From positions 1 through 51,920 of IMG/VR virus record IMGVR_UViG_3300032562_000037: a DNA stretch of 51,920 nt; one strand, written 5' to 3'. This DNA comes from a virus. Shown here piece after piece: positions 1-44,282 of this stretch; the first letter of the stretch is position 1, and each line of letters opens with the position of its first letter. The notes beneath the pieces were generated by a model. The model was not told where the DNA came from, made no database searches, and saw only the letters and a program-made list of their open reading frames with translations. A program made the position numbers and the translations under genes.

Positions 1-372
1 GACCTCGGCGGCTGCGACCTGACGGGCCTGACGCTCCCGACCAGCATCGGCGGCTACCTCGACCTCGGCGGCTGCGACCTGAATGGCCTGACGCTCCCGA
101 CCAGCATCGGCGGCTCCCTCGACCTCGGCGGCTGCGACCTGAATGGCCTGACGTTCCCGACCAGCATCGGCGGCTCCCTCTACCTCGGCGGCTGCGACCT
201 GACGGGCCTGACGCTCCCGACCAGCATCGGCGGCTCCCTCTACCTCAGCGGCTGCGACCTGAATGGCCTGACGCTCCCGACCAGCATCGGCGGCTCCCTC
301 TACCTCGGCGGCTGCATGATCCCCGCCTCAGTCCGGAAGCAAATCAAGATCGAATGGAACGTCTACAACTAA
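1..372 (+). CDS. Leucine-rich 20-residue repeat protein, C-terminal part
   Basis: The frame is open from base 1 to the TAA at 370-372 and holds five exact-length 60-bp units. Each encodes a 20-residue repeat of the form CDLxGLTLPTSIGGxLxLxG, and the protein ends with a short basic-aromatic cap. The Leu/Ile spacing and the LP step resemble leucine-rich repeats, so a solenoid fold is likely. The start is missing here. The gene begins at 51358 at the other end of the window in the same frame, so these are two parts of one gene across the contig junction. Function unknown. Confidence 0.75.
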   Translation, partial: DLGGCDLTGLTLPTSIGGYLDLGGCDLNGLTLPTSIGGSLDLGGCDLNGLTFPTSIGGSLYLGGCDLTGLTLPTSIGGSLYLSGCDLNGLTLPTSIGGSLYLGGCMIPASVRKQIKIEWNVYN

Positions 373-7775: not shown

Positions 7776-8951
7776 TTAGCCGAGCACTGAAATAATCGCG
7801 TTGGACACAGTGAATGAAGATGAAGTCCCTGCGCTAACGCTTATTTTTACATCTAGTGTGTTGGAAACCGTGGTATTGACAACCGTTATACCTGCATCAG
7901 ACCCTGCGTTGACTGGGTTCAACCCAAAACTAGACCCACCGGATAGTTGGACAGAAGTGTAAAGTGAACCACTAGCCCCGGTTGCATAACAAGACATAAC
8001 AACTTCGAGTTTCACTCCGTATGTTCCAACGGCTAGAGTAGGAGTAACAGAAGGAAGAGATGCCGATCCTACCAACGGGAATAGCGTTACAACGGCAGAT
8101 GTTCCATTACTTATCGTCCCATAGACTTCTATTTTGATGGTTTTCCCAAGCACAAGGAAATTAGCAGGGATAGAAAGGGACCCATTGAAGTTACTCCCGA
8201 AACCTTGGATCAAGGAGTAATTGGTTGAGGTTGCCGCGATATTGACGGTGTATCCAGTCACCTTAGACACGGCCAGCGCACCACCCTTGTAAACCTTGAC
8301 CAGATTAGCAGTTGATGCCCCTTCATTCACGCAAAGGGTCTGCTGGGTTGTATCCGTCCACATATCGCCCAGAGCGGGGGACGAATCAGTATAGAGGTTG
8401 AAGTTTACCTTGTTGAAGTTTGATCCGATGGCAAGGTTATTCAGGGTATACCCGACCGTCCCAGCCGCGTATGCGTTCCCGCTGGAATAGCCCACAAGGC
8501 CCGCGCCGTTTGTGGCGAGGGTAGTGAGCGGCAGATTCGTTTCAAGCACCCCTGCCGCATCCAGCGCGCTCCCAACAGTGCTTGCGGAGTGCGATCCTGG
8601 CGTGTATCCGACGATGCCAGCGCCATCGGCTCCGAGGGTTGCGGAAGCAAGCGCTGCCAGTGATGCGTTGCCCCGGATATTGTCGATTGGGTAGGGACTC
8701 TGCTGCACCCCGGCAGCATTGAGCAACTGGAATCGATAGGGGCTAGAACCAAGCCAGAATTGTGCCTCACCATAGTTGTTGAGGATAATCGGATTCGGCA
8801 TGTTGGTGGCAAGGGATTGGCTAGTATAGGTCGCCAGTGGAGTATTGGTTCCGGATGCATACGTATACAGCAGGCCGCCTGCCAGCGGCAGGCCCGTCAC
8901 GTTGTCAACCGCAGAAAAGACCGGAGCCGTAGCCAAAGAACCGCTAGCCAT
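7776..8951 (-). CDS. Second tail fibre with tailspike-type N-terminal adapter
   Basis: Residues 10-95 repeat the tailspike adapter plan: GLPLAGGLLYTYASGTNTPL, NPIILNNYGEAQFWLG and PYPIDNIRG. After a linker with LGADGAGIVGY and NGAGLVGYSSGN repeats, the body (about 185-391) is rich in Ser, Thr, Val and Gly and beta-structured. There is no clear enzymatic motif, so it is a non-catalytic receptor-binding protein or fibre. GAGGG lies upstream of the ATG, preceded by a late promoter-like site. Confidence 0.8.
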   Translation of the reverse strand: MASGSLATAPVFSAVDNVTGLPLAGGLLYTYASGTNTPLATYTSQSLATNMPNPIILNNYGEAQFWLGSSPYRFQLLNAAGVQQSPYPIDNIRGNASLAALASATLGADGAGIVGYTPGSHSASTVGSALDAAGVLETNLPLTTLATNGAGLVGYSSGNAYAAGTVGYTLNNLAIGSNFNKVNFNLYTDSSPALGDMWTDTTQQTLCVNEGASTANLVKVYKGGALAVSKVTGYTVNIAATSTNYSLIQGFGSNFNGSLSIPANFLVLGKTIKIEVYGTISNGTSAVVTLFPLVGSASLPSVTPTLAVGTYGVKLEVVMSCYATGASGSLYTSVQLSGGSSFGLNPVNAGSDAGITVVNTTVSNTLDVKISVSAGTSSSFTVSNAIISVLG

Positions 8952-8959
8952 AAATGAAT

Positions 8960-8976
8960 CCCTCTATTGAATTATA
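8960..8976 (-). promoter_or_regulatory. Late promoter-like element, variant
   Basis: Minus-strand TATAATTCAATAGAGGG, 9 bases upstream of the second tail fibre start. It matches TATAAT and the downstream ATA-GAGG but departs from TATAATANATA in the middle. The GAGGG also serves as ribosome binding site. No good -35 hexamer is apparent. Confidence 0.5.
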
Positions 8977-11582: not shown

Positions 11583-11600
11583 CCTCTACCTTATATTATA
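11583..11600 (-). promoter_or_regulatory. Late promoter-like element
   Basis: Minus-strand TATAATATAAGGTAGAGG, starting 26 bases upstream of the GTG at 11574. TATAATA is intact but the following ANATA part is shortened. A 12-bp hairpin lies directly upstream. No -35 element is evident. Confidence 0.55.
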
Positions 11601-11604
11601 ACTA

Positions 11605-11638
11605 TCGCCACCCATTTATTATTTACAATGGATGGCGA
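11605..11638 (-). terminator. 12-bp hairpin at an operon boundary
   Basis: On the minus strand TCGCCATCCATT and AATGGGTGGCGA pair over 12 bp (one G-U) around a 10-base AT-rich loop. It follows the gene at 11656-12399 and precedes the late promoter-like site. There is no U-run after it, so it may be a weak terminator or a 3' end stabiliser. Confidence 0.5.
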
Positions 11639-11655
11639 CAGTCTGTTACCCGTGG

Positions 11656-12463: not shown

Positions 12464-13771
12464 TTAGTGGACGACCTTGGTAAGGAACCCAGTCCGGAGG
12501 GGAGCCGCGTTGTAGAGCGCGTCCAGCCGGAACAGGAGCTTATGGTTGTAGCCGTCCAGCCAGAACAGGGTAGAAGCACGGAGCCCGGTCTGGGGATCCT
12601 TCATCCGCTTGGACAGAGAGAACGCACCCGAAGCGCCACCAAGACCAGCGGTATCAATCAGGTCGGCCATACAGAAGGCAATGGCTTCCTCGTGGAACAC
12701 GGCGGAAACCTGGAGAACCTGGCCGGTGCCCGCAGTCAGCGCGGAAGCGGTAGAGAAGCCCCAAGGGTTGATCGTGGGGGTGCCGGTAGGAAGCTGGTTG
12801 ACGTTCTGGAGCGGGCCGCTAGTGATCATCGGGGGGAAGTAGTTGACGGTGGTGCCAACCTGCGAGGTAACCACGAAATGCTTCAGCTCTGCCTGGACGC
12901 CCTTGCCCATCGGGTTGACCGCATTAACGCTAGTGACCGTGAAGCACTCGCCGGGGTTAAAGGTGCCGGTCATACCGGAAACCACCATCGAAGTCCCGCC
13001 GTTGGTCGCACCGGAGGCGTAAAGAATGGTGCCGCTCCAGGTGCCGAGGGTCTGAGAAGGGGCGTTCGCGGTGTTGCAGATATCCATGCCCGCACCCTTA
13101 GCGACCGTGCCGTTACGCCACCGTTCGGCAACTTCGGTCTGAGGATTAAACAGAGTGGTCAGACCCTGCCAAATGCTCGCATCAACATGGGGGTTCAGAG
13201 CCGCGCTGATCCGGTCGTCCTGGAACACGCCGGATTGAGTTTTCATGACAGCGTAACCGTCAACCAGCGGAACCATGGAGCTGATCGGCTGCCCGATGCC
13301 ATTGGTGCCAGTGGAAGTAAACGGCTCATTGAACTGATTGAAACCGTTGTTGGTCGGACCCGTGATCAGGGTATTCCAAATGGACTGGTCCATCTGCTGC
13401 CAGAGGGTCTGAGCCATGGGATCGACGATGTTGGTATAGAACTCGTCAACGTTCAGGGTCTGCTGAGCAACAGTGACCTCGATATCAACGCCGCCCTGGA
13501 ACAGCTGCACCGGGGTGTAGTAGTCCTGATAGGCGCTGGGCGCAGCGGTAGCACCCGAACGGTAAGTCGGGAACCAAGGGGTGCGGATATTCAGGGTATC
13601 GCCGATCTTGCCGCCATCCGGGCCACCGTTGGCAGCACGGAAGGAACCGCTAAAATCGCCGTCCCATCGGCGGGCAACGCGGGACACCATGACCAGGTTG
13701 TTCTTGACCTGCTTCAGCGCCTTGGCGGTGATAAACGCCTGGTTGTTATAGACATTCTGGATACCGGGCAT
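12464..13771 (-). CDS. Major capsid (coat) protein, P22 gp5-like
   Basis: Shell-forming protein of the HK97 fold in the P22 coat group, chosen on content and position directly after the scaffold gene. An N-terminal helix with LKQVKNNLVMVSRVARRWDG is followed by GDTLNIRTPWFPTY and a QQTLNVDEFYTNIVDPMAQ segment. Residues about 245-330 are Gly/Thr-rich and beta-structured, consistent with an inserted Ig-like domain, and HEEAIAFCMADLIDTAG near 375 is the conserved late strand-helix unit. Length 435 aa is close to P22 coat. Confidence 0.85.
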   Translation of the reverse strand: MPGIQNVYNNQAFITAKALKQVKNNLVMVSRVARRWDGDFSGSFRAANGGPDGGKIGDTLNIRTPWFPTYRSGATAAPSAYQDYYTPVQLFQGGVDIEVTVAQQTLNVDEFYTNIVDPMAQTLWQQMDQSIWNTLITGPTNNGFNQFNEPFTSTGTNGIGQPISSMVPLVDGYAVMKTQSGVFQDDRISAALNPHVDASIWQGLTTLFNPQTEVAERWRNGTVAKGAGMDICNTANAPSQTLGTWSGTILYASGATNGGTSMVVSGMTGTFNPGECFTVTSVNAVNPMGKGVQAELKHFVVTSQVGTTVNYFPPMITSGPLQNVNQLPTGTPTINPWGFSTASALTAGTGQVLQVSAVFHEEAIAFCMADLIDTAGLGGASGAFSLSKRMKDPQTGLRASTLFWLDGYNHKLLFRLDALYNAAPLRTGFLTKVVH

Positions 13772-13788: not shown

Positions 13789-14664
13789 TTAGAACTCCTG
13801 GAAGCCGAAATTCTTAACTCCGGCAGTGGAGTTGGTTTTGGTTGCTTTCACTGGTTTAATGGGGGGAGGAAGGGGTTTCTTCGCCTTGACGGGTTCAGGA
13901 ACAAGTTCGGGGATAGCAAGCCGCGCTTCGATCTTGCCAATTTCCTTGGCGGTGCGCAGCGGGTCCATGGAAGCGATGCGGATTGCTTCATCAGAATTGG
14001 CCAGGAGATAATGCCAGAGATCACCGGAAACATCGGAATCCTGGATGAGCCGAACCACAGTGGGATTGGCGGTCTGAATGCCACTCGCCACACGTTCCCG
14101 GTCCATTTCAAGCAATTCCGGCATATCGGGGAATTTCTTGACCATTTCCTGCTGCTGGGCCTTGAACGCCTGCTGTTTCTGCTGTCGGTCCCGCTGGTAG
14201 AGCTTGACATCAACCTTGTAATCAATGTCCTTCTCACCTTCGGGATAACTGGCTGGGTTGGGGGCATCCGGATCAACCGGAGGTTCCCCAGGCGTTTCTA
14301 CCCTCTGTGTCTGTCGAATAGCATCGAGTTGGCCCCTGAGCCGTTCTCGTTCCCTAATGAGCTTTGCGATTCGGGCCTCAGCCTTAGTATCGCGGTGCTT
14401 GTCGGGCTTGGTTTCTTCTTCCTCGGTCAAAGTCTGATTTTCGGCTTCTTCCTCGGTTTGCTCGGATTCTACGGTTTCAGTAGTTTCAACTTCCTGAGTT
14501 TCAACCGTTTCTTCCGTCTGTTCTGGAGTAACAATTTCGGGTTCTGGCTTTTGCGCAGTAGCAGGGTCCAACTCGCCTTCTCTAACCCCCTGTTTCAGCA
14601 CATCATCAAGGTTCCCCGCTTCTCCAAAGGCACCGTCTAGCTTGTTCTGGTATTCACTTGCCAT
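13789..14664 (-). CDS. Scaffolding protein
   Basis: Internal scaffold that directs procapsid assembly. Typical properties: 291 aa, very acidic middle (residues 40-90 are mainly Glu and Thr), a helical coiled region with ARIAKLIRERERLRGQLDAI, and a basic C-terminal part (VKAKKPLPPPIKPVKATKT) like the coat-binding tail of P22 gp8. It ends FGFQEF, similar to the GFKEY/GFKSY ends of two small proteins. AGGAG precedes ATG 14664, with a 62-base leader after a late promoter-like site. Confidence 0.85.
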   Translation of the reverse strand: MASEYQNKLDGAFGEAGNLDDVLKQGVREGELDPATAQKPEPEIVTPEQTEETVETQEVETTETVESEQTEEEAENQTLTEEEETKPDKHRDTKAEARIAKLIRERERLRGQLDAIRQTQRVETPGEPPVDPDAPNPASYPEGEKDIDYKVDVKLYQRDRQQKQQAFKAQQQEMVKKFPDMPELLEMDRERVASGIQTANPTVVRLIQDSDVSGDLWHYLLANSDEAIRIASMDPLRTAKEIGKIEARLAIPELVPEPVKAKKPLPPPIKPVKATKTNSTAGVKNFGFQEF

Positions 14665-14726
14665 TAGTTCTCCTCATGACATATGAAGTGTCAAGTCTCA
14701 TACATGGTTTTAAAGAGGTCCAAGAA

Positions 14727-14743
14727 CTCTTATATGTATTATA
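14727..14743 (-). promoter_or_regulatory. Late promoter-like element before scaffold-coat
   Basis: Minus-strand TATAATACATATAAGAG. Its TAA is the stop codon of the portal gene (14739-14741). It would start a transcript for the scaffold and coat genes, the products needed in greatest amount. Confidence 0.65.
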
Positions 14744-16907
14744 ACGATGCCCCAAAATTCACCGGCTGCATGTTCGCACCCTGAGATAATGGGGCGGTGG
14801 GAGCCGCAGCCTGTTCGGGTGGATTCGTAGCCTGCTGAATCGCGGCCTGATGAACTGCCTGATCCTTGGCCATCAAGTGCTTGGAAATGCCCATTAGCAT
14901 TTCGTGCGACTGTTGACCCTTGAGCTTCAATTCCTCCATCTGCGCCTGGAGCAAAGTCTTGTTTGAATCATGGTCCATTTGTGTCTGATGCTTGGTCAGT
15001 TCGGTCTGGGCCTGAATCTGAGCGATCTGGAGGCGCGTTTGTTCGGTATTGGCCAGATCGGTTTCCTTCTGGAGAGTGGCCGAAAGCTGCTGAATCATCT
15101 GTTGAGCCTGGCCAAGTTGGGCCTGCAACGCCTGGGGATCGGGCTTGTTTTTCTGATCAATCGGCTGGAGCGCGGGAGGCAGTAGCTTTTCAAGCCGCTT
15201 TTTCAACTCGGCAGATTCCGGGAAGTCCATAAGCCCGACAATCAGGTCCATGCAGTAATTGGAAATCGCCGGATTCTTCATGGCAAGCTGAGTAAGCTGG
15301 TTCAGGTTTTCCTGCCGTTTGGTATGGTAGGACGGGCCGGAATCTACAGTAACGGCATATTCGCCCGTGGACAGGTCAAATACCTTCCCAACTGCCGCCA
15401 GTTCCCCGCCGTCCTCCGGCTGGGCAGCGCCATTGACCCCGACAGATTGATACTTCCCGCCCAGCCCAAGAATGCGGATCACTTCCGGCTCGGTCATGGT
15501 CTTGCGGATCAAGTCCAGGAGCTGCTTGCCAAGCACTCGGATGGCCCGGGTCAGGTTGTCGCTAAAATTGTAGTGCGCGACATTGCCCGCATTCTGGAGC
15601 GCCTTGATCGCAACTCCAGATTGATCGTTCGCCATCTTTTCGCCCAGCGTAGGATCAAAGATTGCGCTGGTCGCCTTGATATCATTGTCGAGCATCTGGG
15701 CGACGGCCATCATCCCCTGAATTGGGGGTTCTGCGCTCTGCCGCTGGGGAATCGGAAGGGGGATCTCGGACCCTTCAACCTGGGTTTTATAGGTCAAGTA
15801 AGGAAGGTCCAGGACGTTTACCGATGCCCAGTCGTCCTTGTGGTCATCAACAGAACCCTCCGCAACCAACCATGGATTTTTGGGAGCCCGGGCGATCATC
15901 TCCAGGATAACCGTCTGGATAGTGTTTAACATGACCTGGGTTTCTTTGGTGTTCCGGACCAGACCGCTGTAAACCCTATTGCCATTATCTAGGATCGAGT
16001 CCCCAAAGATGGGGATGATCGGGATATCCTCACCGATCCACTCCGTTTCCTCAAGAATCTCTCCGGGGGCACAAAGCTTATACCACTTCACCACCAGGCG
16101 GTAATCGTCGCGCTCGATAGGTTTCCCATCGGGGTCTTTGGAAATCTGCTTCAGTTGACGGGGAGTGCAGTCGGCCTTGTCCATGACCGTTCCGTCTTTG
16201 AGCTTGCAGAGGGTATATTTTTCGTGCGTCTTGACGTAATATTCCACAACCATAGCAGACTTGGTATCGGAGTCAAACCAGTTGGGGAACTTGGATGCAA
16301 TATTGAGCCAAGACTGCCAAGACCGGCAAGCCAGATCGGATTCCGGGTATTCCTCTACAAATTCATCATGGCTCAGGAGGTCCATAACGAAGGCATAGGT
16401 GATATCCGAGCCGTCAACCTCACGGAATGCTGGATCGATGTAGACCATGAATGGATTCGGGACCGCCTGGATTTTGATTTGCTGGTCGAACGATCCCGGC
16501 TTGTATTCGGTCATGAGCCGCATGAATCCGATGCCGCCCTGAACCGCATGTTCAAATCCGGTATCATAGGCAAGGTCTGCCCGTGACTGGTATTCGATAT
16601 GTCGGGCGATCCCCTGGAGAACGTCCGCAGTATCAGCATCGGCTTGGGTGTTTACAGCGTGGTAGCAGATCGCAGGGCGGTTGTCGCGCTGCTGATTGCA
16701 TATCTGCTTCACCTGAGCATTCAAGCGATCTGAGGCGATTGTAGGCTTGCCTACGCGGGCCGACTTGGCATCTTCCGGCCACTGATTCGCCGGGGAAAGA
16801 AAGTTAATTTCTTCAATAGAAATTTTATATTGATCTTCCCAAGATTCAATTGTATATTTCAAACGCTCACAAACGGTATCTTCAAAAGACTTTTCGGCAG
16901 CGGCCAT
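14739..16907 (-). CDS. Portal protein, P22 gp1-like
   Basis: Dodecameric head vertex channel. 722 aa matches the P22 portal size. The N-terminal helix is followed by FLSPANQWPED and RPAICYHAVN, then the RHIEYQSRADLAYDTGFEHA helix, a beta wing with NPFMVYIDPAFREVDGSD, and a WIGEDIPIIPIFG strand. The C-terminal about 140 residues are Gln-rich helices (QLGQAQQMIQQLSATLQKET), equivalent to the P22 barrel. The start has GAGGG upstream, placed between a terminator-promoter pair and the coding region. Confidence 0.9.
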   Translation of the reverse strand: MAAAEKSFEDTVCERLKYTIESWEDQYKISIEEINFLSPANQWPEDAKSARVGKPTIASDRLNAQVKQICNQQRDNRPAICYHAVNTQADADTADVLQGIARHIEYQSRADLAYDTGFEHAVQGGIGFMRLMTEYKPGSFDQQIKIQAVPNPFMVYIDPAFREVDGSDITYAFVMDLLSHDEFVEEYPESDLACRSWQSWLNIASKFPNWFDSDTKSAMVVEYYVKTHEKYTLCKLKDGTVMDKADCTPRQLKQISKDPDGKPIERDDYRLVVKWYKLCAPGEILEETEWIGEDIPIIPIFGDSILDNGNRVYSGLVRNTKETQVMLNTIQTVILEMIARAPKNPWLVAEGSVDDHKDDWASVNVLDLPYLTYKTQVEGSEIPLPIPQRQSAEPPIQGMMAVAQMLDNDIKATSAIFDPTLGEKMANDQSGVAIKALQNAGNVAHYNFSDNLTRAIRVLGKQLLDLIRKTMTEPEVIRILGLGGKYQSVGVNGAAQPEDGGELAAVGKVFDLSTGEYAVTVDSGPSYHTKRQENLNQLTQLAMKNPAISNYCMDLIVGLMDFPESAELKKRLEKLLPPALQPIDQKNKPDPQALQAQLGQAQQMIQQLSATLQKETDLANTEQTRLQIAQIQAQTELTKHQTQMDHDSNKTLLQAQMEELKLKGQQSHEMLMGISKHLMAKDQAVHQAAIQQATNPPEQAAAPTAPLSQGANMQPVNFGASL

Positions 16908-16913
16908 TCAACA

Positions 16914-16932
16914 CCCTCACATATTTATTATA
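16914..16932 (-). promoter_or_regulatory. Late promoter-like element before portal
   Basis: Minus-strand TATAATAAATATGTGAGGG, 6 bases before the portal ATG, in a true intergenic space and downstream of an intrinsic terminator. The GAGGG is the ribosome binding site, so the 5' leader would be short. Confidence 0.7.
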
Positions 16933-21104: not shown

Positions 21105-21359
21105 TCAGCGCCTATCGCCCTTGCTGTTCTTGAGCAACATATCGATCTTATCGTCCATCTTGCTGAGCACAGCCATCATTTCTTGCCGATTCTGCTGCAA
21201 CTCCTGAATCTGGACGCTATGTTCAGTGAGCTTCGATTCCACGCTTGCACTCGTATTGCCATACCAAAGCATGACTGAGCCTATTACCGAAATGGCCATA
21301 ATGATAGACCCAAACGGAACCGTGCGGTCAAGGCTCCACCCTTCTTTGTGCTCAGTCAT
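21105..21359 (-). CDS. Membrane protein with coiled coil, spanin- or holin-like (84 aa)
   Basis: A short cytoplasmic N-terminus (MTEHKEGWSLDR) is followed by one membrane segment (about 17-36, FGSIIMAISVIGSVMLWY) and then a long coiled coil to the end. This is the layout of an i-spanin; no separate o-spanin lipoprotein is visible. It starts the lysis operon just after a late promoter-like site and AAGGAG. Confidence 0.65.
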   Translation of the reverse strand: MTEHKEGWSLDRTVPFGSIIMAISVIGSVMLWYGNTSASVESKLTEHSVQIQELQQNRQEMMAVLSKMDDKIDMLLKNSKGDRR

Positions 21360-21367
21360 GCCAATCT

Positions 21368-21386
21368 CTCCTTACTATCTATTATA
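21368..21386 (-). promoter_or_regulatory. Late promoter-like element before lysis genes
   Basis: Minus-strand TATAATAGATAGTAAGGAG, whose TAA is the stop codon of the 90-residue gene at 21382. The AAGGAG serves the lysis gene at 21359. Full match to TATAATANATA. Confidence 0.7.
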
Positions 21387-25997: not shown

Positions 25998-26795
25998 TTA
26001 AACAATGGCTGCGGCATCAGAGAACGCGGCATCAGAAAGGACAGAACCAGAAGCTGCTGCGTCACCGCCAAATGCGCTAGCCCCAGCGCTTGATTCGCCC
26101 AGCGCCATCGCGTTATTATCGGTCTGGGCCATGCCTGAAGAACTGGCCCCTGAACCGAACATGGACGACAACCCCTGCATTATCCCAGACATGGAGGTCC
26201 CTTGGTTCGCCTGAGCCGTCTGCCCGGAAGAGCCGAACGCAGAAGCAAAAGCGGCTGCCTTGCCCAGCGTCTCGCTAGCCTGAGAATTGCCCATGCCTGC
26301 CTGGAGATTGGCCATCTGGGCAGAGTAATTACTGCCCAACTGGGCCAACCCAGACGTAGCTGAAAGCCCCTGATTCCCAAGTGACGAGAGTTGGCCCTGT
26401 TGGCTGGCAAAACGGTTGTATGCATTCTGGTATTCATTGGATGCGTTCTGTTGGGCGTATCCACTCAGTGCCTTCTGTGCCCCACCAGAAAGCGCACCGC
26501 CGCGAACAGACTGAGAGTTATTAATTGCGTTCAACCCCTGCTGCATATTGAATGCATATCCAGGGTCTTGCTGAAAATTGCTCAGGCCAAAACCATTCGT
26601 GGCCATCTGGGTTGCCTTATTATTGGCTGTAATCCCATTCTGGATAAACGGCTGATAGTTGGGAGAATTGGCGTTGTAGGTATTTTGGACCGTATTTTCG
26701 GCATTTTGGATGGCCGCCTGCTGCTGTTCTCCAGCGGTTACAGCGGCCTTACCGCCAATAATCGCAGTAGCCACCGAATCAATGATGCTTCCCAT
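25998..26795 (-). CDS. DNA-transfer protein, P22 gp7-like
   Basis: Third ejection protein. Conserved landmarks: YQPFIQNG, FQQDPGYAFNMQQGLNAINN with following SQSVRGGALSGGAQKALSGY and EYQNAYNRFASQQGQL. These define the DNA transfer/injection protein family of podoviruses. The C-terminal third is Ser/Gly/Ala-rich. It follows a late promoter-like element by 8 bases. Confidence 0.85.
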   Translation of the reverse strand: MGSIIDSVATAIIGGKAAVTAGEQQQAAIQNAENTVQNTYNANSPNYQPFIQNGITANNKATQMATNGFGLSNFQQDPGYAFNMQQGLNAINNSQSVRGGALSGGAQKALSGYAQQNASNEYQNAYNRFASQQGQLSSLGNQGLSATSGLAQLGSNYSAQMANLQAGMGNSQASETLGKAAAFASAFGSSGQTAQANQGTSMSGIMQGLSSMFGSGASSSGMAQTDNNAMALGESSAGASAFGGDAAASGSVLSDAAFSDAAAIV

Positions 26796-26802
26796 TCGTC
26801 TA

Positions 26803-26818
26803 CCTCTTATATATTATA
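26803..26818 (-). promoter_or_regulatory. Late promoter-like element before ejection genes
   Basis: Minus-strand TATAATATATAAGAGG; its TAA is the stop codon of the GNAT-like gene (26814-26816). The GAGG is the ribosome binding site for the gene at 26795. Confidence 0.7.
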
Positions 26819-27263: not shown

Positions 27264-28381
27264 CAACCAATCCTCCAGTTTGTTCCATCAAAAAAAACAG
27301 GCATAACATTGGTTCCACCACCAGCCACGATTGAGTTAAATGTGGCTGCATTGGCGTTATTAACCATGGCTCGCTGCCCTTGAACTCCGGCAGGAAGTGA
27401 GGCTACGGCATACACGGCGGTTCTGACTGGGCCAGTGAACGTAGCGCTCTGATCCTGATCTATCGTCAACGCTGTAGTTAGCGTGGACGATCCATTAGGA
27501 ACCGTCTGGAACACCATCTTGGTCCCGACTGTTGACGATGAATAATTCTGCGTTGAATAACAACGGATCGCTGCGCCAGCAACGACATCGTCAGATGTAT
27601 CGACCGATCCGCCAAACTCGAACGACCCAACTCTGTTTCCGCTAGTGACTGCTGATCCTGTCGGAATATACATCAGACCAACAGTTACGCCACCAGTGAT
27701 GCTCTGGGTTGGATTAACATTGTGGAAATGTGCAGTAACGCCACTGGCAACGTAGAATTCATAGCTCGCATCCAGCGGATTGGATCCTCTAGGCCCAATT
27801 TCCATGTTGGAGTTGCCGCCGTAACCGATGGGGTTATAAAAGAAATTGGCGTTGTCTTGAGCCAGCGCACCAGCCGCGCCGGCGAACATGATGCTTCCCT
27901 GGGTTAGGGTGGTGGCAATCGTGATGGCTGGGGTGCTAGTAGGCGTTGCCACAGACCCCGTAAATCCATTTGTGGCGACAACCGAAACAGAACTGACCGT
28001 GCCAAAAGACGATGGCAATGGGTGGGAATGATCGGCCCGCGCCGCATCAGTCTTAACCCCAGTGGAACCGAGTGCCGTATCTACAGCGGGGACGACGGTG
28101 GAGAGTCCGGTGATTCCGTTAAAGGAAGTCCCGGTCACAATCCCAAGACTGAACGTCAATGACACAGTGTTGCCATTCTGGGACTGGGCAATACCGATGC
28201 CATTCTGTCCCGTCGTCTGGATATCACTGACATAGCTCGCCCCAATCAGGTTCACCTTGGGACCAAGCAACTGGTGGAAAAATGATGTCCACGCGGGCGT
28301 ATGGAATCCCCTGCCATCAACAGCAAGTATGGCCGGAGACGGCGGAAATATATTGGTGGCAATCAGACTAGGCGTGCTCAT
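27263..28381 (-). CDS. Fibre-like virion protein (372 aa)
   Basis: Repeats typical of phage fibres: SVVATNGFTGSVATPTSTPA at about 135-155, ARADHSHPLPSSFGT, and a C-terminal motif ASLPAGVQGQRAMVNN leading to GGGTNVMPVFFDGTNWRIG. Lies between the gp10-like and gp14-like genes, where P22 places the tail needle gene gp26, so it may form a central needle or side fibre; this is inference from position. Confidence 0.7.
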   Translation of the reverse strand: MSTPSLIATNIFPPSPAILAVDGRGFHTPAWTSFFHQLLGPKVNLIGASYVSDIQTTGQNGIGIAQSQNGNTVSLTFSLGIVTGTSFNGITGLSTVVPAVDTALGSTGVKTDAARADHSHPLPSSFGTVSSVSVVATNGFTGSVATPTSTPAITIATTLTQGSIMFAGAAGALAQDNANFFYNPIGYGGNSNMEIGPRGSNPLDASYEFYVASGVTAHFHNVNPTQSITGGVTVGLMYIPTGSAVTSGNRVGSFEFGGSVDTSDDVVAGAAIRCYSTQNYSSSTVGTKMVFQTVPNGSSTLTTALTIDQDQSATFTGPVRTAVYAVASLPAGVQGQRAMVNNANAATFNSIVAGGGTNVMPVFFDGTNWRIG

Positions 28382-31300
28382 CGCGGCGAGTTCTCCGCAG
28401 CCTTCACGTCTATTTCGGCTCCCAATAGGTTGACCAGAACCGGATCAAAACAAGTGACCTTGAACACCATGTCACGGACGCCGCCCTTGATCTTGCGCCA
28501 AATCAAACGCTGGAGTCGATTCCCGATGGGTCCGAGCGAACAATACCGTTCGGCAGAAAATGTATATCCGCCGTCATAACTATAACTCAACCCGATTTGT
28601 GGGTTTGTCCCGGTATATTCATAGATTGGGGTTCCCTGCATATATTGGAATGTGGCCATGTATTCAGTCGGCAGCAATTGTGGAGCCGTGGCAGAAAATG
28701 TGCTGGTGATAACTGCGGCGGGTTGGACTACGGTGAGGGCAGTATTCTCAACCTCGGCGAACGGCGGAATCTCGAAGGCCAGCAATCCCTGATTAGCGGT
28801 ATAGGTGACCTGGTCATAGGCGGATGCCCCAACCGTCTGGATCAACGGCAACAGCGCCGACTGGGGGCCAATCTGGCATCCCCAGACCCCAACATAGGCC
28901 GATCCGTTCCCTGGGTAAGTCTCAATGAGAGGGAATCCAAAATCAGCGATGCCCGCATCTATCAGTTTGACATAAGCCGATGGCTGGATGCTCGTTCCGG
29001 TTGCGGTCGATACCGTAGTGGTGCTGGGAGTGCCAAACTGGACCAATGAATTGCTGAATGGGCACGGCGCGGACAGGTTGTAAACCGATCCAGTCTGGTT
29101 AATAGTCCCGGACGCCAGCGAAAGGACGGTGATACTAGTCGAAACACCGGCCACCCATAGCGTTGATCCAATCGTAACGGCCCCGAACGTGGGGGGGATC
29201 GCCAACGTCATCTGATTAGCGGTTCCCGTTGCCGCTGCGCCTACTGTTAAAATCGTCCCGGTCGTGTTCGTTTCCACATAGGTAATGGAGCATCTGTATA
29301 CGTTGGGGAACCCCGCGATAGGAGTCATGATTGGGGTGCAATTCTGAGATAGGATGATGGTCCCGGCTTGAAGATTGAAAAGCGCGGATGCCGCTCCTGC
29401 CTGGCCCAAACCAAGGGACAACTCTAAATATCGCTGGTCCGTCCGAGCAGCAGTGAAAATTGATTGTCCCTGATTTGTCACCCATCCAGGGGAACACTGA
29501 TAGGTTGACCCAACCGCGCCGAGAATCCCACCGATCAGCGCCGTGAGCGTCTGGTCAACGATGGCCAAGTCGATTAGGGACACCACGTCTCCAAGCGCCA
29601 GAGTCCCATTGGTTGGGAGGACATTGAGCGTCATCGTGTAGATGATGGACGGTGCAGTCCCTGATGTCGTAAATGTGGCCTGGCCGCCAGTCAGCGTCAC
29701 GCTCGTAATTGTTGATTCGGCGGTTGCATAGATGGAAAGATTGGTTGTCTGGCCAGAAACAACAGCATAGGGGATCGACATACCATGAGGATTGCATGTC
29801 GAATCCTCAGTTAGGAATGTTCCGGCTTCTGATTGCGCATAGTCGGGGGTAAACCAGTTTTGCCCATTGGGAACAGCATTATACATCGTCCAACCCTGGG
29901 CAAAATCATATGAATTGATGCAGAGGTTGGTATCCTTGGCTGGGGCCTGTTGTTGGAGATTGTTCCCGCGCCAATCATTGACGTAGATTTGTGCCGTGGC
30001 TGCGGCTGGGTAGATATTGGGAATTTGGAAATCAACTTCGGTCCCGTTGCCGGTGCCGATAGTGACCAACCCGGAGGTCAGAGGTGCCGGATTGATCGTC
30101 ACTTGGTTCCCAATCGTGGTATAAGACCCTGACCAGTTGGAAACCGCACCGTTTGACGTAACCGTAACGCTGCCCACTGGGGTCTGCGGAGTGCCGTCAT
30201 TCCCCACTAGGGTATAGGTGGGGCCATTCCCGCTCATCAATACGTTCGTGGCCGTATGGAGAGTCGGAGTGCCTGTCCCTATCTGGATCGGCAAACCCAC
30301 GCCATCTAACCCTGTGCCTGCCTGAACATCGAGTTGCAGTTGCGGGTAAAACATGCGCTTGTATGCCGCCGATTGGTGCGGGGCGATACGGGTCCGCACG
30401 ATGGGAGCGCCGTTATGCGTGAAATTGGTTGAATCGATTGAATATATATTGCCGTTCTGGTAATCGCCTACGAGATGCAATTGCCCATATCCGGGAATGA
30501 ATACATTGGTATGGAAGTTGCCCAAATCACGGGAGTAAGCACCGTTTGAGAAATAGGCCCGCTCGTGCCATTCCTTGTGTGCAATGTCATAGGCCCAGCT
30601 GGTGGTTGATGTTGGGCTATTCAGGATATACCACGAATGGCCTTCTTCCTGGTATGCCCACGCGATCACCTGGCTAATATCGCCTTGGTTCTGGAGCCAG
30701 ATTTCAACAGCATGGTTCGAGACCCGCATGGGACGATAGCCAAACGCCATGGCAACCTCGCCATAGCCATTATTATCGTTGATGACCCACAGGAGCTGCC
30801 CGCCGACCTGGGCCACACTCCAAGGGGCCGCACAACCGGTTGGAGCGGTCGCACCCGGAATCTGCTGAAACAGGTTGGTAGTCGCGGAACCGCCGGTGTT
30901 CTGCCAAACACTCAGAGATCGATTGCCAAGCACCCATACGATATCGTGGTCTGATATGATTCTTGAAACATTGTCGTTATTGATGTTGGCTTCAAACGTG
31001 TTCGCGTCATTGATGTTTTGGGGATCAGCAGCATAGTAACCGCTGATGGTGTCGGGCTGAGAAAAAAGGAAAAACCCATCCTGGAATGACACAAAATTGG
31101 AACCGGCGAAACCAGTCCCGTCGTTCATCTGATAAACCTGGGTGGTCCCCTCTTGGAAAACATAACCAGTAGACGACCCATCGACAACTACCACCTGGTT
31201 GATGAGCCCGGTATTTGCAACACCCTGATACTGGTTGGGAATTCCATCGATAATGGACACAAATCCACTGGAGGTGGTCAGATATGCCAACAGAATATGA

Positions 31301-31587
31301 GACCACGAGAGCACGCCAGCGGACACGGTGGGAACCAACTGGAATAGGCCATTCCCGGCCACGCAATAGACATAATTGTTGGCGGTATGGAATAATCCAC
31401 GAATGGCGTTGCGCGGCAATGAGTGCTGGAGCGTATACCCAGACGTGGGAGCCAGCATACAGGGCTCCTGTTCTTTTCCTGTCTGGACCTCATCAAATTC
31501 GGGATGCCAGTTGATGCAACGCTGCGAATCGTAATTGATTGATTTGAGGGCGTATGTCGGCCCGAGAAACGATTTTAGTTTGCTCAC
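28378..31587 (-). CDS. P22 gp10-like connector with large insertion (1069 aa)
   Basis: The N-terminal about 430 residues match the packaged-DNA stabilisation/tail hub family (RCINWHPEFDEVQTGKEQEP, DGFFLFSQPDTISGYYAADP, VWVLGNRSLSVWQN, KEWHERAYFSNGAYSRDLGN, YKRMFYPQLQLDVQAG). The last about 90 residues are the family C-terminus (SYSYDGGYTFSAERYCSLGP, RLQRLIWRKIKGGVRDMVFK). Between about 430 and 975 are some 540 residues of Thr/Ser/Gly-rich beta domains not present in the roughly 470-residue P22 gp10. The insertion probably projects from the tail hub. GTG start with GAGGG upstream. Confidence 0.85.
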   Translation of the reverse strand: MSKLKSFLGPTYALKSINYDSQRCINWHPEFDEVQTGKEQEPCMLAPTSGYTLQHSLPRNAIRGLFHTANNYVYCVAGNGLFQLVPTVSAGVLSWSHILLAYLTTSSGFVSIIDGIPNQYQGVANTGLINQVVVVDGSSTGYVFQEGTTQVYQMNDGTGFAGSNFVSFQDGFFLFSQPDTISGYYAADPQNINDANTFEANINNDNVSRIISDHDIVWVLGNRSLSVWQNTGGSATTNLFQQIPGATAPTGCAAPWSVAQVGGQLLWVINDNNGYGEVAMAFGYRPMRVSNHAVEIWLQNQGDISQVIAWAYQEEGHSWYILNSPTSTTSWAYDIAHKEWHERAYFSNGAYSRDLGNFHTNVFIPGYGQLHLVGDYQNGNIYSIDSTNFTHNGAPIVRTRIAPHQSAAYKRMFYPQLQLDVQAGTGLDGVGLPIQIGTGTPTLHTATNVLMSGNGPTYTLVGNDGTPQTPVGSVTVTSNGAVSNWSGSYTTIGNQVTINPAPLTSGLVTIGTGNGTEVDFQIPNIYPAAATAQIYVNDWRGNNLQQQAPAKDTNLCINSYDFAQGWTMYNAVPNGQNWFTPDYAQSEAGTFLTEDSTCNPHGMSIPYAVVSGQTTNLSIYATAESTITSVTLTGGQATFTTSGTAPSIIYTMTLNVLPTNGTLALGDVVSLIDLAIVDQTLTALIGGILGAVGSTYQCSPGWVTNQGQSIFTAARTDQRYLELSLGLGQAGAASALFNLQAGTIILSQNCTPIMTPIAGFPNVYRCSITYVETNTTGTILTVGAAATGTANQMTLAIPPTFGAVTIGSTLWVAGVSTSITVLSLASGTINQTGSVYNLSAPCPFSNSLVQFGTPSTTTVSTATGTSIQPSAYVKLIDAGIADFGFPLIETYPGNGSAYVGVWGCQIGPQSALLPLIQTVGASAYDQVTYTANQGLLAFEIPPFAEVENTALTVVQPAAVITSTFSATAPQLLPTEYMATFQYMQGTPIYEYTGTNPQIGLSYSYDGGYTFSAERYCSLGPIGNRLQRLIWRKIKGGVRDMVFKVTCFDPVLVNLLGAEIDVKAAENSPR

Positions 31588-31593
31588 AGTTTA

Positions 31594-31610
31594 CCCTCGT
31601 ATATATTATA
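31594..31610 (-). promoter_or_regulatory. Late promoter-like element before gp10
   Basis: Minus-strand TATAATATATACGAGGG, 6 bases before the GTG start and downstream of an intrinsic terminator. CTCGTATA and TATACGAG also make the site a near-perfect palindrome. Confidence 0.75.
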
Positions 31611-31631: not shown

Positions 31632-31652
31632 AAAAAAGCCCCCGAAGGGGCT
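31632..31652 (-). terminator. Intrinsic terminator ending the terminase operon
   Basis: Minus-strand AGCCCC-TTCG-GGGGCT followed by TTTTTA: a 6-bp GC stem with a stable UUCG loop and a U-tract. A strong rho-independent terminator placed directly before the gp10 promoter-like site. Confidence 0.9.
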
Positions 31653-32566: not shown

Positions 32567-33931
32567 TCAATGCATCCATGAATTCGGCCCAGCGATCATG
32601 GCCGCCAGGTTCTGCCGGGCGATTGAGTCCGGGACGCGCCGGATGGGATGGCCCAGCATGTCTAGTTGTTCCATCTCTGCGGGCGGATCGATTTTTTGCT
32701 TGAACCCTAGAATTAGTGGCTCAATCGCGTAACGGATACTGTCAACGGCATCGTCTTTGCAGCTTAGCCGCTCCCCTTCCTCTGTCACTACCTCGCGCCG
32801 CTGTTTGGCATCAATCTCGGGCAAAACGTTGCCGGTGTGCGGATCGACCCGGTATCTGAGCGAGCGCAGCTCGGCATAGGTATATGGGCATCGCGGGTGG
32901 ACATATATGTCATAGAGGGATCGTAGATAATCTACACCGTCCATGTCGCATCCTGGCCATTTGCGGGATGCCATCATGCGTTTGTATCCGTTGCGTCGGC
33001 AGTAGTTGATAAGCTCGGGCCGGCTGCTATCGGCCCGAACCACGTTTGCCCCCGCGTCCGGGATGGTGTCAAACCAGACGGGAATCATGTCAATCTCACA
33101 ATGGAACTGGACGGTTTCATGCTCGACATACAGCGCATGATTCGGGGCATCCAGCCAACATTTGATCATCACGGTAGGATCACCACTATATCCCCAATCC
33201 GTGCCAAACAACCTAGACCAGTGAGGCGCTGGCACAAACTCTTGGAGGTGCAGTTTCGCCCGGTCGAAAACTACATCATTGGACCGATGTTTTGTCTCGC
33301 CTAGCCAGATATGGGCATATTCGTCGTAATCCGATGCCTTGAGCCGTTCCATTTCTGATCGCAGCACCTCCGGGAACCATGGATTGTCCGACGCGTTGAT
33401 CTGGATCACCACAATGTCGTCTAAGCTGTGCTGGTGTTTAATGAACCGGACGTAGGTTGGATCATCGTCATGGACTGGGTTCATCGTCACGATGATTTCA
33501 GAGCCAGGTGCCCGGATGGTTGGGACCAATAGACTCCATGATTTCTCACTGACCGTCTGGCCTTCCTCAACCCAGCATTTCGTCACCTTTTCGTAGGATT
33601 TGATGCTCTCAACCGTGTTTGTGGCCAGGCCAGTGAAAATAAACATGCTGCCCGATTCGCTGCATCGAATCTCATCCCGTGTCACCTCGAATCTATTACC
33701 CAGCCCCATGAGTTGAATCTGGTCCCCAATCAACCGGTGGACGGAATCACGAATGGACCGCTGCACCTCGCGGCAACACAGGATGCGCTCTCCGGATGAC
33801 AGAGCACAGATGATCAGATATCGAGCCACACTCCAGGATTTCGAACTACCACGGCCTCCGTGTAGGATTTTATATCGATGTGGTTCCCATAATGGGAAGA
33901 GTTTGGAGGGCAGGTCTAGTTTGATATCCAT
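32567..33931 (-). CDS. terL: Terminase large subunit
   Basis: DNA-packaging motor of the Terminase_3 (PBSX/P22-related) type. ATPase: GGRGSSKS Walker A (residues 25-32) and CWVEEGQ Walker B region (119-125). RNase H-like nuclease: FGTDWGYSGDP (Asp245), RADSSRPE (Asp301) and CKDDAVDS (Asp393/Asp397). Length 454 aa is typical. Followed by small accessory genes rather than by portal, unlike P22. The ATG at 33931 has no strong Shine-Dalgarno, only GGGA. Confidence 0.95.
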   Translation of the reverse strand: MDIKLDLPSKLFPLWEPHRYKILHGGRGSSKSWSVARYLIICALSSGERILCCREVQRSIRDSVHRLIGDQIQLMGLGNRFEVTRDEIRCSESGSMFIFTGLATNTVESIKSYEKVTKCWVEEGQTVSEKSWSLLVPTIRAPGSEIIVTMNPVHDDDPTYVRFIKHQHSLDDIVVIQINASDNPWFPEVLRSEMERLKASDYDEYAHIWLGETKHRSNDVVFDRAKLHLQEFVPAPHWSRLFGTDWGYSGDPTVMIKCWLDAPNHALYVEHETVQFHCEIDMIPVWFDTIPDAGANVVRADSSRPELINYCRRNGYKRMMASRKWPGCDMDGVDYLRSLYDIYVHPRCPYTYAELRSLRYRVDPHTGNVLPEIDAKQRREVVTEEGERLSCKDDAVDSIRYAIEPLILGFKQKIDPPAEMEQLDMLGHPIRRVPDSIARQNLAAMIAGPNSWMH

Positions 33932-35098: not shown

Positions 35099-35394
35099 GG
35101 GCCCTCCATTACTTTTTCATCGCATTCCTCCAGTGCTAGGGTGTATCCAGATTCAAACGCATCAGCCGGGCTAAATGACTGATACCCATCGTCATGCTGG
35201 ACGAAATAACCTCCAGGACGCGGACGGTGCTTGTTTAAAAACTCCTGACTCAATTCGATAGTCGCATATCGAAATCCCACTAGCTCGATGAGAATTTTCG
35301 ACGCAATCCCATCAAACCAGATGCGCTCGATTTTTGCAGCGCTGACTTCCTTGTGGCACTTGTAGCGTGGGAGTCGGATTCCGCTAGTGGTCAT
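35086..35394 (-). CDS. Conserved phage protein with a DGYQSFSP motif (102 aa)
   Basis: The pattern YKCHKEVSAAKIERI ... PRPGGYFVQHDDGYQSFSP and ADAFESGYT belongs to a small protein seen in many tailed phages near terminase or early genes. Its function is unassigned. It overlaps the upstream gene by 11 bases. Confidence 0.75.
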   Translation of the reverse strand: MTTSGIRLPRYKCHKEVSAAKIERIWFDGIASKILIELVGFRYATIELSQEFLNKHRPRPGGYFVQHDDGYQSFSPADAFESGYTLALEECDEKVMEGPWMV

Positions 35395-35677
35395 GATCTA
35401 CTCCATCAATAGTGAGTCTGCCGTTTGCATCGGCAGTGGCCTTGATTCGGGTATTCCCGTGGCCAGTGCGGGATTTCTCGCGCCGTGCATCTACCATATT
35501 CCCGAATTCCAGAGCGGAGCCACTACCTGCCACAGTCACAATGCCCGGGGCACATACAGATTTCTCGAACGTCTCCTGAGCGCACATGGGACAGATCGTG
35601 ATGGTCCCCTGATCAACCCATTCGATGCGGTCGATTTCGACATGGTCGCAATTGTTACACCATCGGTCAAACAGCAT
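35384..35677 (-). CDS. Zinc-ribbon protein (97 aa)
   Basis: CNNCDH at residues 7-12 and CPMCAQ at about 29-34 form a CxxC...CxxC zinc ribbon; the C-terminal part is Gly/Asp/Thr-rich. Possibly nucleic acid-binding. The ATG follows GCGAGG within a late promoter-like element, so it may head a late transcript. Confidence 0.65.
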   Translation of the reverse strand: MLFDRWCNNCDHVEIDRIEWVDQGTITICPMCAQETFEKSVCAPGIVTVAGSGSALEFGNMVDARREKSRTGHGNTRIKATADANGRLTIDGVDHDH

Positions 35678-35682
35678 TGATA

Positions 35683-35699
35683 CCTCGCTATGTATTATA
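35683..35699 (-). promoter_or_regulatory. Late promoter-like element before the packaging operon
   Basis: Minus-strand TATAATACATAGCGAGG; its TAA is the stop codon of the RNA ligase (35695-35697). The GAGG is the ribosome binding site of the gene at 35677. It shares CTCGTATAATA with the gp10 element. Confidence 0.7.
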
Positions 35700-36228
35700 C
35701 GAGTTTTGATTTGGGGGATTCATCGCCCTTGATCGTTTTTTTGAACATGGTCCCCGCTGCCTCATGATAAATTACAATGCCCTCGGGGTCCATCCATCCC
35801 GGGGCCGCGCGGCTGCCCTGTTCCGCCAGCATATCGATCAGCCCTCTAATCGCGGTCGTATCGAATTCACCCCGATAGAGGATCGGAACCACATGACAGC
35901 ACGAGGGCACATTATCAGGGTTCCATTTGTCCACATTGAATAGGCTGAAGCGTTTTTCGGTCAGCCCATATTTTCGCTGAATACCCTGCCCCCACCATTC
36001 GCCATAATGATGGCCGGGCCCGAGCAACATCAATTCGTCCGCGTGATCAGTCCCCCAGCTCGCAAACCCATAATTGTCATTCTGTGGGGTGATCCAACGA
36101 GTTCGGGAGCCAAAATGCATATGCCCATCATCGTCAATGAATACCTGGGCATTGGTGCCGTCGATTTTTTCGGTAACCGTGCAGTTTCGGCTCAGTCGAG
36201 CGATTTTGGGGAATGCGGCGAAATCCAT
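35695..36228 (-). CDS. RNA ligase family protein (Rnl2-like)
   Basis: Nucleotidyltransferase motif I is EKIDGTN with Lys21 as the likely adenylation site; later motifs are WWGQGIQRKYG, EGIVIYHEAAGTMFKKT and KKTIKGDE. 177 aa is short, so it may lack a C-terminal domain. Phage RNA ligases repair host or phage tRNAs cut by anticodon nucleases; the two phage tRNAs make that a reasonable guess. AGGAGG precedes ATG 36228. Confidence 0.85.
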   Translation of the reverse strand: MDFAAFPKIARLSRNCTVTEKIDGTNAQVFIDDDGHMHFGSRTRWITPQNDNYGFASWGTDHADELMLLGPGHHYGEWWGQGIQRKYGLTEKRFSLFNVDKWNPDNVPSCCHVVPILYRGEFDTTAIRGLIDMLAEQGSRAAPGWMDPEGIVIYHEAAGTMFKKTIKGDESPKSKLV

Positions 36229-36243: not shown

Positions 36244-36579
36244 TTAGTTTTCATCAACCAGTGTATCGCCATTCAGTTGCACATTCCTGGCGAAATATTG
36301 TGACTCGCGTCTGACAAAATTCCACTCAGCGTACCGGAGATAGGTCGTGATCCAGGAGAACAGCCGAGTTTTTTTCTCCGGGCGGTATCGTTGGATGGCA
36401 TGAACCAGATATACCTGATACTCACCCTCCAGGTCGTCCCATTGTGTGCCATATGGATATTTCAGCCGGGCTTTGGCTAGGGTCGGGGGAATGCAGCACA
36501 TGGCATACACGATGCAATCATCCAATTTGCCACTCGATAGGAGGGATTGAGCATGGGTTTCATTAAAATAATTCGCCAT
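36244..36579 (-). CDS. Sigma-70 region 2-like protein, candidate late sigma factor
   Basis: Residues 38-95 read as sigma-70 region 2: RLKYPYGTQWDDLEGEYQVY, then LVHAIQRYRPEK and RLFSWITTYLRYAEWNFVRR, matching the DDL-E-L, YxP-K and TYLR--RR positions of core-binding and -10-binding helices. The protein is 111 aa and there is no room for region 3 or 4. A sigma that reads only a -10 element resembles T4 gp55. It is driven by its own host-type promoter, with the ATG only 5 bases after the -10, so a leaderless message is possible. Inferred to drive the TATAATANATA sites. Confidence 0.75.
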   Translation of the reverse strand: MANYFNETHAQSLLSSGKLDDCIVYAMCCIPPTLAKARLKYPYGTQWDDLEGEYQVYLVHAIQRYRPEKKTRLFSWITTYLRYAEWNFVRRESQYFARNVQLNGDTLVDEN

Positions 36580-43358: not shown

Positions 43359-44282
43359 TTACTCATTATTATTATAACGTGCTCCCCATACATCGCAAAA
43401 ATCATTGTCAACAATTTCAGGGAGAACCACATCAACGTCAATCCCCTTGATTCTGAGTTTCCGTGCCAATTCGTATGCAGCAGCTTGCCCAGTGAAACTG
43501 GCGTCATTGTCCCCGCAGACCAGAACAGATTTACATCCATCGGGAGGCTCCCATTTTTTCATCCCGTCTGCGCTGATTGCGGCCCAGCAGGGCAGCCCAA
43601 ATAGTTTTCCCGCACAGATTGCTGTCTCGATCCCCTCCGCGATTCCCAGCCGCTCCTGGGCCGGCCCAAGGCGCACGGATGAACCCTCCAGTGGAAGGCA
43701 CGAGACGATTTTCCGCACAGGGTCAACCGGGGCCTTCTGTCCTTCCAGTGTCAGAAACGTCCGATGGAGAGATGCCCCTTTCCCATCTGGATAACGGATC
43801 ACCGCCAGCATTCCCGGCCAAGTCCCTTGATCGTCCGAGTGTTTGAGTTTGTGGTGGCTCCGCAGGTCGGTGCAAACACCGCCAGGATCACCGCAACGGA
43901 TATTTAGGTAGATCCATGCGGGAGAATTGGGTTGAAGCTTCCTGGATGATTTCAGGAGTTTCCGCACATATTCCACCTTGTCAGCATCTGGGATTGTTTT
44001 TGACATGGGATCAATGGATACATTGCCGATGATGGCATCAACCTCAAAGGCAGCACGAGGGAATCCCCATCCATGGAAGGCCATGAGCAATTGCATCCCT
44101 GTTCCAGCTCCGCATTGGGAACAAAAATAAGACCCGCTGCCATCTTTGTTGTCGAATCTAAACCTATCTTTCCCGCCACATAGAGGACATGGACAATGTT
44201 TTCCGTCCAAACATGCGGGACCAATCCCAAGCGCAGTCAAAATTCCATGCCATCGTCCTGCCGCCGCCTCAATGGTTTTCAT
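43359..44282 (-). CDS. DNA primase (zinc-binding and Toprim)
   Basis: N-terminal zinc-binding domain (HCPCPLCGGKDRFRFDNKDG with SYFCSQCGAG: CxxC...CxxC) and C-terminal Toprim-like domain (LGIAEGIETAICAGKLFG, and SVLVCGDNDASFTGQAAAYE). P4-alpha-like but without a fused helicase; helicase activity is encoded by the next genes. Start ATG 44282 (AAGGGGG) overlaps the upstream gene by 14 bases. Confidence 0.85.
   Translation of the reverse strand: MKTIEAAAGRWHGILTALGIGPACLDGKHCPCPLCGGKDRFRFDNKDGSGSYFCSQCGAGTGMQLLMAFHGWGFPRAAFEVDAIIGNVSIDPMSKTIPDADKVEYVRKLLKSSRKLQPNSPAWIYLNIRCGDPGGVCTDLRSHHKLKHSDDQGTWPGMLAVIRYPDGKGASLHRTFLTLEGQKAPVDPVRKIVSCLPLEGSSVRLGPAQERLGIAEGIETAICAGKLFGLPCWAAISADGMKKWEPPDGCKSVLVCGDNDASFTGQAAAYELARKLRIKGIDVDVVLPEIVDNDFCDVWGARYNNNE
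43362..43376 (-). promoter_or_regulatory. Late promoter-like element in the replication arm
   Basis: Minus-strand TATAATAATAATGAG overlaps the last codons of primase. The only such site in the early arm; it could raise expression of the initiator. Confidence 0.4.

Follow-up and report, generated by a model that had tools for sequence, protein, structure and literature searches.

The T4 late sigma factor gp55 is similar to sigma factors only in domain 2 and reads promoters that have a TATA box and no -35 element (PMC2988020). In the E. coli podovirus phiEco32, gp36 is likewise a sigma factor without region 4; it uses a single promoter element, tAATGTAtA, and transcription starts 6-8 bp downstream (PMC8948821). 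A region-2-only subunit also forms part of the Bacillus split sigma factor RsoA-SigO. The late genes of lambda and P22 are switched on by antiterminator Q, which affects the elongation of transcripts that start at a single late promoter and occupies the map position between NinB and terminase.

We analysed a window of 51,920 nucleotides, positions 1 to 51,920 of virus record IMGVR_UViG_3300032562_000037, from a P22-like phage. It encodes a stand-alone sigma-70 domain 2 protein of 111 aa (P0001; 36244-36579, minus strand, ATG start), which is likely a late sigma factor reduced to domain 2 that reads late promoters consisting of a -10 element only; no transcription data bear on this reading. With phiEco32 gp36 the protein shares the similarity to region 2, the absence of region 4 and a one-element promoter, here a proposed one, before late genes. 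It differs in length (111 aa against 214), in its motif and in belonging to an unrelated phage genome, and no sequence relationship beyond sigma was detected (hhalign probability 0.2%, a weak test with a single-sequence template). With T4 gp55 it shares the domain-2-only similarity and the proposed use of promoters without a -35 element. However, gp55 has 185 aa, a clamp-binding tail and the coactivator gp33, whereas no comparable extension was seen in the small sigma; again, no direct relationship was detected (hhalign probability 0.1%, the same weak test). The first-pass annotation had named gp55 as the known precedent, which is correct but incomplete, as it missed phiEco32 gp36 (PMC8948821).

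The late genes of the window, assigned by PHROGs, lie on the minus strand and include those for TerL (32567-33931), a gp10-like stabilisation protein (28378-31587, GTG start), a DNA ejection protein (25998-26795, ATG start), the portal (14739-16907, ATG start), the scaffold (13789-14664, ATG start) and the coat (12464-13771). The sigma gene has NinB and replication genes upstream of it in the window. In the records of related phages that span the interval, it lies between the NinB/replication genes and TerS/TerL, and every record of this clade covering the NinB-terminase interval contains it. It thus shares its map position with antiterminator Q of lambda and P22 and, by inference, the role of activating late genes. 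Q acts on elongation, whereas the small sigma system would comprise several initiation sites.

Three further features of the window are recorded here as observations. An RNA ligase-like gene (PHROG 548; 35695-36228, minus strand) lies directly downstream of the sigma gene, with none seen beside the sigma gene in relatives. The gp10-like protein has 1069 aa and matches PHROG 578 in two stretches, the better covering residues 7-427, and therefore has a large additional part. At the left end (1-330, plus strand), tandem repeats of about 60 bp encode Leu/Gly-rich repeats.

A region 2 protein without regions 3 and 4

The first-pass annotation had claimed that the 111-residue protein matches sigma-70 region 2 and has no region 3 or 4, and both claims held. 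The ORF contains the motifs DDLEGE, YRPEK and TYLRYAEWNFVRR. On its own, P0001 matches Pfam Sigma70_r2 (PF04542) over regions 2.1-2.4 (residues 41-93; 36301-36459, minus strand) with E=0.0016 and 18.6 bits, under the curated cut-off of 24 bits. Known phage sigma factors serve as a yardstick: phiEco32 gp36 reaches 18.3 bits, on par with P0001, and T4 gp55 only 13.1 bits. An AlphaFold (AF2) model built from 8 sequences (pLDDT 84, pTM 0.73) resembles sigma domain 2. When this model was submitted to Foldseek, the top 50 matches were sigma factors or RNAP holoenzyme entries in all but two cases (9a7s and 9a50), which are integrative crosslinking models with generic names; the SigE N-terminal domain matched with a TMt of about 0.8. 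The sigma matches had probabilities of about 1 but their E-values were weak (0.034 at best), which is typical of short helical domains. Structure prediction and profile search, the checks named in the first-pass annotation, thus both returned sigma region 2 similarity and strengthened the observation. The C-terminus of P0001 falls shortly past region 2.4, with no region 3 or 4 after it.

Relatives were reached through portal alignments followed by HMM iteration over the ORFs of the records so obtained, which yielded members in L095, L102, L103, L131, L105, L015, L104 and L100. Scanning viral contigs with P0001 alone found nothing and the 8-member family alignment was too diverse for scanning; a later scan with 4 members brought in the new contigs L144 and L146. 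No related prophage turned up when the genome collection was scanned with the portal, and a tblastn search of phages and plasmids with the 111-aa sequence returned weak matches, many of them to sigma factors. Five P22-like phages taken from the annotated collection have neither the small sigma gene nor a TATAATANATA site. The relatives come from uncultured P22-like phages, and the clade represents a previously unannotated group of such phages.

All family members are short (105-163 aa) and end soon after region 2.4. Sigma70_r2 was matched by 8/8 proteins of the first family alignment (best E 5.7e-7), with scores above the curated cut-off in 6 of 17 clade records. The family profile matched only sigma factors in the PDB, and PHROG 351 (RNA polymerase sigma factor) was matched by 7 of 11 members. 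Regions 2.3-2.4 are retained, and W76 and I77 are nearly invariant. Profiles, structure prediction and the family of relatives together show, by computation, that the core of P0001 is sigma-70 region 2.

The best annotated sequence match, WP_226594885 from a Halobacillus plasmid, is a two-domain sigma factor; it has region 2 in common with the small sigma and differs in carrying a C-terminal HTH that resembles region 4. The same difference sets apart the region 2 proteins of three other P22-like phages (L154, L155 and L156, from the records of L023, L134 and L113, respectively), which have 216-282 aa. Their genes lie 4-6 kb upstream of the portal gene, and their region 4-like HTH was read by eye. 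No TATAATA, the motif discussed below, was found in the examined loci of these phages (L023, L113 and L134), and P22-like phages may possibly harbour other sigma-driven late switches. A second region 2 protein (226 aa; Sigma70_r2 25.9 bits) is encoded in L104 (7063-7740), directly upstream of the small sigma; its extra C-terminal part matched no Pfam family.

The existence of two-domain sigmas in other P22-like phages would fit a view of ORF 36244-36579 as the decayed remnant of a full sigma factor. Against this, the short length and the region 2 residues are conserved throughout lineages that share only 24-59% identity, conservation that needs purifying selection, and we regard the remnant hypothesis as all but excluded.

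A second alternative is a split sigma factor, in which the domain 2 protein needs another phage protein to supply the flap contact, as modelled by RsoA with SigO in Bacillus and gp55 with gp33 in T4. In its favour, known region-2-only sigmas have partners, T4 gp33 among them (PMC2988020), and a possible partner exists in a small Cys-rich protein with two Cys pairs (35384-35677, minus strand), encoded close to the sigma gene in many members of the clade. Against it, no copy of the Cys-rich gene was detected close to sigma in L104, L105 or L015, and no match to Sigma70_r4 (PF04545) rose above the cut-off in any of the 17 clade records, the record of L144 containing a single sub-threshold match of 13.8 bits. 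The RsoA-SigO system differs in this respect, as it needs a separate region 4 subunit and none was found in the clade records. The split sigma hypothesis is only weakly tested, because gp33-like proteins cannot be found by sequence, and it remains possible. It overlaps with our preferred reading, a late sigma of domain 2 only: the cofactor would differ and the sigma role would be unchanged.

A one-element motif on the late strand

The window contains eight exact copies of TATAATA, all on the minus (late) strand, compared with 1.8 expected for both strands together. The earlier count of nine such sites therefore held only in part, as a ninth requires the inclusion of a variant, TATAATT (8970-8976, minus strand), 25 nt upstream of the ATG of a tail gene (7776-8951). 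Six of the eight exact sites fit TATAATANATA exactly. TATAATA also stands out from the other permutations of its letters (35 in total): it occurs 8 times on the late strand, never on the opposite one and 6 times directly before a start codon, whereas the others average 2.5, 1.6 and 0.5, respectively.

Seven of the exact sites, all on the minus strand, precede genes. Upstream of the ATG of the Cys-rich gene, at a distance of 22 nt, lies the site at 35693-35699, found at the same position in L095 and L144. The site at 31604-31610 is 23 nt upstream of the GTG of the gp10-like gene, and just upstream of it a GC-rich hairpin followed by a T run (31637-31652, minus strand) resembles a terminator. 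At 26812-26818, the motif stands 23 nt before the ATG of the DNA ejection gene, as it does at the same position in L102; at 21380-21386, it stands 27 nt before the ATG of a gene (21105-21359) that is itself upstream of the endolysin gene. Portal and scaffold genes have their sites 25 nt (16926-16932) and 79 nt (14737-14743) upstream of the ATG, the latter at the same position in L146, L097, L100, L102, L104, L105 and L015. After the coat gene, a site at 11594-11600 lies 26 nt upstream of a GTG-initiated ORF (84 aa) that precedes a gp4-like gene; it is in the same place in L102, L104 and L107. The eighth copy (43370-43376, minus strand) lies within the primase gene, at its 3' end, and is uncertain as a promoter. 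The repeat CATAGCGGATT, which is located upstream of the sigma gene and resembles an operator, did not exceed chance, and sigma-70 promoter-like matches in the 32-52 kb region did not exceed the level of shuffles.

Among relatives, TATAATA recurs at the same late genes (portal, scaffold, the post-coat gene, ejection and TerS) with diverged flanks. The clade spans 37-59% GC, and about ten distinct lineages keep the motif at these genes; in the records with 57-59% GC, the late-to-opposite-strand counts are 6:0 (L102), 5:0 (L103) and 6:0 (L131). The nearest relative, L095, has TATAATC rather than TATAATA at the portal and scaffold genes. Of 23 clade loci, 21 have TATAATA at the start of the portal gene; among 111 other P22-like loci, all without a member of the small sigma family, just 1 does. 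As the clade loci are related, the former fraction does not represent 23 independent cases.

Across 32 sites, information is limited to TATAATA, one base before it, about three after it and the ribosome binding site; because sites were selected for TATAATA, its seven columns could not vary. There is no -35 signal, the best TTGACA match averaging 2.875 of 6 positions versus 2.889 in shuffled flanks, and no extended -10 signal was seen, TGn occurring in 2 of the 32 sites. At the post-coat site, a strong hairpin (-25 kcal/mol; 11601-11642, minus strand) fills the -35 region, and hairpins of quite different sequence occupy the same place in L102 (-24), L104 (-19) and L107 (-18). Thus, computation shows a conserved one-element motif on the late strand that lacks a -35 element and co-occurs with the small sigma gene. 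The features of a full sigma-70 or ECF system are absent, in that region 4 was not found and the proposed promoters show no second element beyond what shuffles give.

The motif alone does not prove what reads it, because TATAAT is also the -10 consensus of host sigma-70. One could therefore propose that the sites are ordinary host sigma-70 promoters and that the small protein acts as a regulator, either anti-sigma-like or core-binding, and has no part in reading them; the sequence does not exclude reading by the host factor. Against this proposal, the 32 sites have neither a -35 nor an extended -10 element, other P22-like phages lack the gene and show the motif at the portal start in just the one locus, and the family keeps regions 2.3-2.4 with their near-invariant W76 and I77. 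We consider this explanation unlikely.

The scaffold leader

At the scaffold gene, a small stem-loop, AAGAG-TTCTTGGAC-CTCTT (14713-14731, minus strand), lies where the scaffold/coat transcript is inferred to begin. It starts 6-10 nt downstream of TATAAT in the window, L095, L146, L097, L100 and L102, and further downstream in L104 and L015. Stem bases change in pairs among relatives (for example, AAGAG/CTCTT, AAGGG/CCCTT and ATGGG/CCCAT). These pairs were counted on stems set by hand, because the MAFFT alignment of the leaders did not match their stem-loops structurally, and a free fold of the window leader favours a different pairing. The position of the stem-loop is consistent with a transcript start near it, an inference made from sequence alone. 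A stem-loop of the same type precedes TerS in L102, and such leaders could possibly serve RNA stabilisation or translational control.

The leader also bears on a further alternative, by which the motif, rather than being a promoter, acts in translation or as an RNA element beside the ribosome binding site. The spacing of 20-27 nt to the start codon at most genes would agree with such a role. However, at the scaffold and TerS genes the motif lies 49-87 nt upstream of the start codon, with the stem-loop 6-10 nt past TATAAT in most lineages, and a leader placed at this distance argues against a translation element, which we consider very unlikely.

A proposed late switch and its implications

We propose that the phage makes a sigma factor reduced to domain 2 before its late genes are expressed, the timing being inferred. 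Through region 2.1/2.2, the small sigma would bind host core RNA polymerase, and it would recognise and open the DNA at a single element of the -10 type, [C/G/T]TATAAT(A/C)(T/A)A; both binding and recognition are inferred. It would make no contact at -35, because it has no region 4. Late transcripts would start from several short promoters that mostly precede a start codon by about 20-27 nt, serving the terminase side, portal, scaffold/coat, gp4/gp10 tail, ejection and lysis genes. In this way, the small sigma would stand in for antiterminator Q of lambda and P22, whose map position it shares. The link between the small sigma and the motif is supported by the conservation of sites at the same genes, the lack of a -35 element and the co-occurrence of motif and gene; core binding and transcription from the sites are inferred. 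The earlier suggestion that a sigma without region 4 reads a -10 element only has, to this extent, gained computational support.

A bolder reading holds that a sigma domain 2 on its own, about 105-110 aa long and without region 3 finger, region 4, clamp-binding tail or partner, suffices with host core, turning it into a promoter-specific late enzyme that acts on a near-consensus -10 element and replacing Q in a P22-like lineage. We consider this reading possible but less likely than not.

The first-pass annotation knew of no described P22-like example, and this held: we found no description of such a sigma in P22-like phages in the open-access literature searched, subscription journals being mostly outside our search. 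If confirmed, these phages would be a third lineage found to use a sigma factor without region 4, after the T4-like and phiEco32-like phages, with a protein shorter than either of theirs, and a sigma factor would be shown to occupy, in P22-like phages, the place on the map that belongs to antiterminator Q. A protein of 105-111 aa with a defined set of promoters makes the minimal needs of promoter-specific initiation directly testable. Together, motif and gene allow a set of uncultured phages to be recognised and their late transcription units to be predicted.
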